The position numbers and the translations under genes are program-made. This document shows, one piece after another, positions 36,701-39,700 of a DNA stretch of 64,000 nucleotides. Positions within the stretch are counted from its first letter, which is position 1. The number at the start of each line of letters is the position of its first letter. Origin of the DNA: Mesaphorura yosii (Eukaryota > Arthropoda > Collembola > Poduromorpha > Tullbergiidae); the NCBI GenBank assembly GCA_009869945.1, contig WIXG01000200.1:62001-126000 (forward strand), written 5' to 3'. Under the pieces are notes generated by a model. It was not told where the DNA came from, did no database searches, and saw only the letters and a list, made by a program, of their open reading frames with translations.

Positions 36701-39700
36701 TACATTATTGTGCTGAACAATTAAAATGAAACATTGCGTTTCGTAACATAATGCGCACTCACTCCGATCTCGGTTGATCCATTTGGTGAAAGCATAATCT
36801 TGATCGAATTCCATGCAGGAGGAAATGCGAAAACGGGCAACCTCGACTTGGTGTCGCGCTAATACAATCGGCCGCCACACACGTTGAATGAGCGAACGCA
36901 TTAACCGTTCCCCAGAATATTATAATGTAATAACAATAAAACAGAGGGGATTACACAATTTGCAAGGTGAGAATGTGATATATTGGAAAATACGTGCGGA
37001 GTAATACAACGCTTATAAAATGTACTGGAAATGTGGAAACAAGCTCGGCGGCGCAATGAATAAAACACGTGAAATGCTTAGAGTGAAGAATGCCAAGTTT
37101 GCATGTTTTCTAATCATTTTCTAAGAAAGCATTCAAAGCAGCCTTTTTTTGCTATTTAACTTGATATTTATGTTTTGTTATTTAGTACATTATTTATGAT
37201 ACGACGATTATGGGTTTTCTTACCCAAACGCTACCTCCTGTACATGTGCATTACTTTATTGATTCGTTTCCCAGTGTTATTTATTTGGTTGGTTAATTGA
37301 TGTTGTGTAATAATAGTTGGGTATACAATGCAAGATATAGAGTATCGCTGGGCTGACGGCTCAAATTCCATCGGAATGGATCAGATTCGACTGCCACAGT
37401 TCGTCGTCTTGGGTCATAAACGTTCACAGACACACGTGCTTCTCTCCACAGGTACTTTCAGGATAATCTAATAAGCTTTCTCTTGTCCTGCCTCCCGTCC
37501 GTCTCTTAATGTGTTTGCACAAGGCCAAAGGAGGCCGAAGACTCAAACCATACATGTTCACAAGGTCTCGAATAACCGAGGGTACATTTCGGGTGCTCCC
37601 GTTCCGCCATCCAAAACGCGCAATTTCCAGATTGTTACGCGCAAGAAAGGTAGCAGAATAGTGATACGAGGAGGTTTCCGAGACCTTCACGCGGATACTG
37701 AATTTTCCCTTCCCTAGTTTAAAATCAGAATGTGGAAATGCATGTGTAACTACGTATTTTAATGACAATAGTAGAATCAATTCTGTTTACGGAGCTCAGG
37801 AGCAAGCGAATCGCGAACAGTACACGGCTGCTGCCTCACTGACACCACTTCAATGATTCGAATTTGAATCACAAGCTGCCCAGACGGCCATTTGTCTGTG
37901 AGCGTCACTGCAATTGTGCTAAGTGCATGCTTTGACAAACACTCACCATTAGTGTTCGTGCCTCACTCTGCAACTCCACACCACGACACAGCCACGATCG
38001 TCCACATCACGTATTGTGGGAATGACCAAAATGCGAATGCCAGGTCCAGTCTTTGCAGAATTGCCGCGCCATGACACAAGAGCCAAGCAAGTAATGCTGC
38101 CGATGCATTTTTCGTTTTGACTTTCTCTTTTTCTCGAAGGAGGGGGAGAGCAATTTTAGAAGTTGCTTTTGACTTGACTCACGGATTGATGCTTTATTCG
38201 AGGGGTCAATTTTAATTATTTTTTAGTTGGCTACACAATGAGTGACATCTGGTACAAATGGGATAAAGGAATCGATTCCGTCGGTGTTTCTCCGGATGTT
38301 TCTCTGCCACAGTTCAAAGTTCTTGGGCACAGGCAACAAGCTTTGGAAATTTCCTTGAGCACAGGTTACTTGAGCTACCAGCTGCAAAATATGGATTAAG
38401 CTTCTATATTCTTGCAACCCTTCAATTTTTATTACATTTGTACGCCAATTATGCAAGATTGACCCCAGCTCACCTTTATTTTATGCATAGAACCTCGCCC
38501 AACCGAGGTTCCTCTCTCGGGCATCAGCCAATGTAATGAACACGTTTCTCACTTTAAAGCACCTTTCAGAATGTCTTTGACGCAATTATTAATTAATGCT
38601 AAACTTAAAGGCTTCCGAACGCGTTTTGAATTCTCCTGTACATCAAGGCAGGAGTTTGATGACTGTCTGATCTCCATGCCAGACTTCAGCTTCGCAAATA
38701 TCCAAAGCATATTGCAGGCTGTGCTTCTGCATCCTACGCTGGCAGAACGGAGCAGACAGACAGAGGAAATCAGTTCTGTAAAAGTTTAGATGAGACATTT
38801 TGAGAAGAAAGGAAGTTCAGTGTTGCATGGCTAAAGCGGAGCATAATAATTTTTTCTGGAGATTATAATAATAATGGTATTCCCTGTAGGGAAAGTTTTG
38901 CTCGTTCATTTATGATTGTACACAGCAGCGCATAGTTTGTCAAGAGGGAAAGTATGGAGAAGGACCCATGCATAATAACAACCCACGGAACACGGACTGC
39001 CTGGCGAGCGGATCTCATCTTATGCATGAAAACATGTTCATGTTTGGTTGGTTGATTTAATGAAAGCGCATGATATCCTTCTCCATCACTTTCATCTCGT
39101 CACTTGAATACCAAAAGAGAGCCTGCACAAAATGCAAAAATGTTCTGGTGAAAGTAGTTCACTCTGCGCAGGAAGGAGAAGAGAAGTGACTGCACAAGTG
39201 AAGGCAAACTATGCCATTACCCATGCATTTTAGTAAATGGTTAGAGGCCTTTCTAAAAGGAATATTTTAGAGTCAGTGCTGTATGGGCCATCATCTTTTC
39301 GTGCAAGAGTCATCATCATCCCTTGTGTCAACCGAATCTTCTTGAAAGTTTATTTCTGAGAGGTGGAAGGTACACACAGAGCAACCTTGCCTTGATGGTG
39401 CCTGAGAATGTCATTTCTCTTGTCAATAATTTCAGTATTCGCATTACACTCGCGTCGGTTGTTCCGAACTGCCGAGACTAGGAGCGTCATAATTCCGCTC
39501 TAAAAGTTATGACAGGATAAGCCACATAAAAATTTCATGGGGTGGTATAATGCACGCGCCCGAGCTGGAGTCTCTGCAATAATAATTAAAAACTTTTTCC
39601 AGTTCTCGGAACCGAGTTCCCTTCTCTCCTCGTTTCTCTGTGAGTCTCACTTTGATGTATTGCAATTATAGGAAATTACTCACGCCTGGCATGCAGTATT

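Follow-up and report, generated by a model that had tools for sequence, protein, structure and literature searches.

The window, the whole 64-kb stretch of DNA analysed here, carries an Rdl GABA-receptor gene (27724-41630, + strand) with two copies of exon 3 and two copies of exon 6, and the upstream exon 6 copy (6a) matches its neighbor (6b) at about half of its residues and is one codon shorter in loop F. We consider 6a most likely a regulated alternative exon that would adjust the GABA response, and put the probability of this reading at about 0.68. Gene structure, open isoforms, divergence of the pair, protein constraint and a distinctive donor pattern were all observed directly.

The gene was located by tblastn of the window with a provisional Drosophila RDL query, and its boundaries were then corrected. 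The resulting model has 14 exons and starts at exon 2, from which codon counts run. Its features are as follows, with the evidence for each in brackets:

27724-27848, + strand: exon 2, first coding exon of the model (tblastn with Drosophila RDL; open splice model)
29132-29199, + strand: alternative exon 3, upstream copy 3a, SSLSEVEM (tblastn; splice model)
29881-29948, + strand: alternative exon 3, downstream copy 3b, SSVSEVEM (tblastn; splice model)
31450-31533, + strand: exon 4, first part (tblastn; splice model)
31610-31749, + strand: exon 4, second part (tblastn; splice model)
31880-31962, + strand: exon 5, with the Cys-loop; its last base is the first base of a split Phe codon (tblastn; splice model)
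37317-37451, + strand: alternative exon 6a (135 nt), one residue shorter in loop F and with the weak donor gtactt (splice model; searches and comparisons below)
37452-38226, + strand: intron between 6a and 6b, 775 nt, with two TGCATG motifs
38227-38364, + strand: alternative exon 6b (138 nt), with the weak donor gttact (splice model; searches and comparisons below)
39672-39789, + strand: exon 7, first part, with the loop C tyrosine and M1 (tblastn; splice model)
40417-40462, + strand: exon 7, second part, with the start of M2 (tblastn; splice model)
40696-40816, + strand: exon with the rest of M2 and M3 (tblastn; splice model)
41041-41171, + strand: exon 8, intracellular loop, first part (tblastn; splice model)
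41265-41437, + strand: exon 8, intracellular loop, second part, with the VRFKVHDPK motif (splice model; alignment to 9she_A)
41506-41630, + strand: last exon, with M4 and the stop codon (tblastn; splice model)

All four isoforms (3a or 3b combined with 6a or 6b) are open to the common stop, with a length of 449 (6a) or 450 (6b) codons counting the stop, and the Cys-loop ligand-binding and transmembrane domains (PF02931 and PF02932) score above cut-off in each of them. The closest chain was sought among solved structures, a set without LCCH3, GRD and HisCl sequences, and residues 20-445 of the 3a-6a isoform matched PDB chain 9she_A (E 7.4e-214, 713.6 bits; next chain 343.1 bits). From its sequence we take 9she_A to be an insect RDL, although its record says GABA receptor subunit beta. 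Between the beginning of exon 7 and the end of M3, a region common to all isoforms, a single residue, before M1, differs from 9she_A, and the spliced protein has the PAR motif before M2 and Ala at 2'. The predicted product is an Rdl-type GABA-gated chloride channel subunit. Its transmembrane part is split by more introns than are known from Drosophila Rdl.

The exon 3 copies (29132-29948) differ by a Leu/Val exchange (SSLSEV vs SSVSEV; 9she_A has SSLSEV). Open frames nearby in the window include one with an SNF2-related domain (48068-48601, − strand) and one with an endonuclease/exonuclease/phosphatase domain (56079-56558, + strand).

Both exon 6 copies lie exactly where the original prediction had placed them, with AG before and GT after each, so that the clean splice sites and frame it had described for 6a are real. 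Each copy begins with TT, the last two bases of a Phe codon whose first base ends exon 5. The claim of a half-matching pair was likewise accurate, peptide identity being 23/45 aligned residues (51%) and nucleotide identity 72/135 (53%), and the deletion claimed for loop F of 6a amounts to precisely a single codon located between G(M/V) and LPQF; placing the gap at any of six positions in the alignment leaves the same 23 residues identical. The split Phe, the Thr-Gly before exon 7 and LPQF itself are identical in 6a and 6b. The further statement that the insect pair differs less agrees at the protein level with the Drosophila pair, which is 36/46 identical (provisional fly letters). At the DNA level the distance is less unusual: under LAST, each variable exon of Drosophila Rdl is described as aligning to itself only and not to its cluster mate (PMC4588896).

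Identity to 9she_A is 35/46 for 6b and 23/45 for 6a, and exon 6 of two further RDL genes in the same genome (on contigs C327 and C456) is identical to 6b at 33/46 residues and to 6a at 25/45. Because 9she_A and these two exons are closer to 6b, 6a has changed more than 6b, although neither has stood still, and 6b is by this comparison the copy near ordinary insect RDL.

Several RDL genes are reported for mites and ticks, and the genome examined here (93.0 Mb in 1127 contigs) has further ones. A second RDL gene lies on C327 (5266-6821, − strand; L038) and a third on C456 (4540-6044, + strand; L039), each with few introns and a single exon 6; no second exon 6 copy fits upstream in either, since the preceding intron is <90 bases. 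The C327 gene has Tyr at pore position 2' (PARVYLG) compared with Ala in the window gene. M2 of the C456 gene has Ser at 2' and Ile at 6' (PARVSLGIIT); 2'S and 6'I have each been reported in spider mite RDL, in different genes (PMC4261083). On C23 (3745-7972, − strand; L040) stand two tandem RDL-like genes without PAR before M2 (TAR and TGR), and exon 6 of one of them has SPDV and LGHRQQA in common with 6b of the window. Eight of the 115 PF02932 matches in the genome (L014, L015, L018, L020, L021, L023, L024, and L027) each fall within one open frame of 445-467 codons, which suggests that intronless Cys-loop channel genes have expanded in number in this genome. L014, which is GluCl-like in appearance, has both the PF02931 and the PF02932 domain.

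A duplication separate from the insect one, which would mean that an alternative loop F exon evolved here in parallel, is in our view possible, though unlikely. The free tree of exon 6 peptides, whose 46 columns give 6a no firm place, sets 6a beside the vertebrate beta outgroup (68/92, not starred) and not with the insect 6a (provisional sequence), and groups 6b with the tandem RDL-like genes on C23 (87/94, not starred); a clade of 6a with 6b is not rejected (p-AU 0.114). The order of the copies may point in the same direction: RDLbd is given as the main variant in the fly (PMC4019635), and in each Drosophila cluster the first exon is described as predominating (PMC4588896). Joining these two papers, with a provisional assignment of exon letters, would put the conserved copy first in the fly, compared with second here. 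Against a separate duplication, 6a is most like the provisional Drosophila 6a (25/45 identical, tied with its identity to the C327 and C456 exons) and has Met and Thr in common with it at two of the positions that distinguish the fly exons. A clade joining 6a to this Drosophila 6a likewise survives the AU test (p-AU 0.241), as does one of 6a with C327 and C456 (p-AU 0.374), and exons 3 and 6 each come as a pair, which is the insect arrangement.

A copying of 6a from another kind of Cys-loop gene found no support: the six genome matches at E up to 10 are all RDL-type, 6a and 6b among them. One scan of viral contigs for relatives elsewhere returned none.

Counted by hand and by eye, the residues between the Trp and the LPQF position number 13 in 6a and in L014, and 14 in 6b, the C456 gene, 9she_A and the vertebrate GABA-A beta-3 subunit. 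Residues 1-33 of 6a align at equal length to residues 160-192 of glycine receptor alpha-1, a weak match (E 1.3). The shorter loop F of 6a is within the range of the family.

By the usual loop assignments, loops A, D and E and the loop C tyrosine sit outside exon 6. The residues that we take to be central to GABA in RDL (the Phe of exons 5/6, the exon 7 loop C tyrosine and residues of loops D and E) would be shared by the isoforms, except where exon 3 is concerned: part of loop D lies in it, and it too has alternative copies. The sequence gives no support to the original prediction of a channel effectively unlike ordinary RDL, as the split Phe, Thr-Gly and LPQF are unchanged and the loops just named, with the loop C tyrosine, lie in other exons. 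Because the copies are far apart and 6a is one residue shorter, the two receptor forms may nevertheless sense GABA differently. Which exon 6 is used is itself described as a probable influence on how potent agonists are (PMC4019635). On the sequence, 6a may plausibly shift GABA potency, in whichever direction and by whatever amount, and we infer that the response to GABA would differ between 6a and 6b isoforms.

A stronger version, in which 6a would make a pharmacologically distinct channel, for example one with another agonist preference or an obligate partner subunit, strikes us as improbable. It can draw on the half of the swapped-block residues that differ, some of them around loop F, on the weak alignment of 6a to glycine receptor alpha-1 without a net gap (E 1.3), and on the diversity that exon 6 is reported to give to loops C and F, part of loop C being counted in (PMC4019635). 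Loop F is credited with a role in agonist recognition in several Cys-loop receptors, but the same review denies it such a role in studies of rho-type GABA receptors (PMC4006026). The split Phe, LPQF, Thr-Gly and the loop C tyrosine are also unchanged or in shared exons, and the stretch from exon 7 through M3, one residue off 9she_A, is common to the isoforms; these too argue against a distinct channel. Decidedly improbable is the compound case of a non-insect arthropod Rdl that would give two receptors, one with an RDL-like loop F and one with a loop F of glycine-receptor length, from a pair of independent origin or rebuilt, with a clearly different agonist profile for 6a.

Several observations indicate that 6a is functional. 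On its own, 6a matches 9she_A (E 2.8e-9) and GABA-A beta-3 (E 8.5e-5), and thus is not a chance ORF; for 6b alone, 9she_A is the sole match at E up to 0.01. The ligand-binding profile scores 6a isoforms at 181.6-182.3 bits and 6b isoforms at 173.5-174.1 bits whichever exon 3 is used, a fit ∼8 bits better with 6a. Different codons encode 13 of the 23 residues that are identical between the two copies. When a copy of 6b was mutated neutrally and one-sidedly to 63 differences (20000 runs), mean protein identity fell to 11.4/45 compared with the 23 observed, a value reached by 0 of the 20000 simulations, and 2322 of the 20000 stayed free of stops. NG86 estimates for the pair (dN 0.59, dS 1.63) speak for constraint only and are silent on adaptive change, as dS is near saturation. 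On this evidence 6a looks alive, its protein kept under constraint while drifting far, and it is presumably transcribed.

That 6a is instead a dying copy, no longer spliced in and diverged through relaxed drift, we regard as very unlikely. Its acceptor has a poor pyrimidine tract, its donor is weak, and it is less like insect RDL than 6b (23/45 vs 35/46 identical to 9she_A), all of which would suit a decaying exon. Yet its frame is open and its length differs by exactly one codon, the neutral simulations never keep such protein identity (0/20000) and are stop-free in only 2322 of 20000 runs, and it fits the family profile better than 6b does, while weak donors are found in 6b and both exon 3 copies as well. 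A recent death of 6a after long constraint is possible.

The donors separate the alternative exons from the rest. Positions +3 to +6 match GTRAGT at 1-2 of 4 sites in the four alternative donors (3a, 3b, 6a, and 6b) and at 3-4 of 4 in the nine constitutive ones, a contrast that 1 of 715 labelings makes as low, under a score chosen after the donors had been inspected. These shared weak donors suggest that 6a is one of a group of exons whose use is regulated. A simpler rule, that all alternative donors are without G at +5, was rejected, as the 3a donor has G.

Skipping both exon 6 copies creates a TGA at the junction of exons 5 and 7 (31962/39672), whereas including both stays in frame (495 codons with the stop, no internal stop), so the reading frame guards against skipping and not against double use. 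We infer that the choice between 6a and 6b would nonetheless be mutually exclusive; a receptor with a doubled block, which the in-frame 495-codon reading would permit, is barely credible, given that ∼45 residues would be inserted into a folded ligand-binding domain and that the Drosophila pair is reported to be used exclusively (PMC4588896).

RNA pairing was sought in five duplex tests (exon 6 regions against introns, and intron against intron), and in 5/5 of them 12-47 of 60 shuffles did as well; we therefore attach no importance to the inverted repeats at 37420/37882 and 38252/38428. Folding of the 6b region is marginally better than that of shuffled sequences (z −2.33, 5/200), a difference too weak to use. 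TGCATG occurs 9 times in the 7436 nt of the three introns that flank or separate the exon 6 copies, compared with 38 times in the 64-kb window, which we note as a lead only.

Under the reading of 6a as a regulated alternative exon, either 6a or 6b would be spliced between exon 5 and exon 7, and this choice would swap a block of ∼45 residues containing loop F and extending to the border of loop C. Exon 6a would be an old, still functional alternative whose protein stayed constrained as it drifted far and lost one loop F codon, and the likely effect would be a changed GABA potency or gating in an otherwise normal RDL receptor. Rdl is the target of several insecticide classes, and a divergent pair combined with an ordinary pore offers a natural experiment on the length and sequence of loop F in a GABA receptor. 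The picture of what RDL is stays unchanged.

Alternative exons 3 and 6 are described for Rdl of Drosophila and Tribolium, with splicing altering GABA affinity in Drosophila, and exon 6a is given there as the one that varies most between beetle and fly (eight residues, mostly near loop F) (PMC2064938). In Drosophila both clusters are reported as mutually exclusive and all four isoforms have been sequenced (PMC4588896). RDL1 of the pea aphid (Acyrthosiphon) has both exon pairs; the EC50 difference given for it is between RDLad and RDLbd, which is an exon 3 contrast and not an exon 6 one (PMC6121307). Because insect Rdl has such pairs with a variable 6a, the present finding is of a familiar kind, and 6a is the copy in which variation would be expected.

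The window gene resembles insect Rdl (Drosophila, Tribolium, Acyrthosiphon RDL1, and Aethina) in having two copies each of exon 3 and exon 6, although Tribolium is described as having three copies of exon 3 (PMC2064938). It also resembles insect RDL in its PAR motif and M2, identical to 9she_A, and in the intracellular VRFKVHDPK motif. Unlike insect Rdl, it has a 6a that is one codon shorter, and further RDL genes lie on other contigs. If the species is not an insect, as weak evidence suggests, the exon 3/exon 6 layout extends beyond insects. One selected tropomyosin exon is identical to shrimp at 39/41 residues and to mite and cockroach at 31/41 each, whereas the first tropomyosin exon is closer to mite (82%) and cockroach (80%) than to shrimp (70%), all against provisional reference sequences. 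Searches with the insect odorant-receptor family and with Blo-t-5 gave no match, a weak result because the controls were silent in both, and COX1 gave none either. The presence of several RDL genes would suit a chelicerate as well, and we take the genome to be that of an arthropod, probably a crustacean or a chelicerate and not an insect. Among the titles and abstract openings listed, none described exon 6 pairs outside insects, and we make no claim to a first report.

Beyond insects, tick Rdl (Ixodes, with a triplicated exon) is comparable in that alternative isoforms arise from internal duplication, but its variants are described as covering 154 residues and the pore residue of cyclodiene resistance, compared with ∼45 residues of the ligand-binding domain here (PMC9219234). 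Among vertebrate channels, 6a aligns without a net gap to glycine receptor alpha-1 (E 1.3) and matches GABA-A beta-3 at 8.5e-5; these are separate genes and not alternative exons, and the spliced protein here is of RDL type, neither glycine nor beta type. At 23/45 identical residues compared with 36/46 (provisional fly letters), the exon 6 pair of the window is further apart than the Drosophila pair and is otherwise of the kind known from insects.
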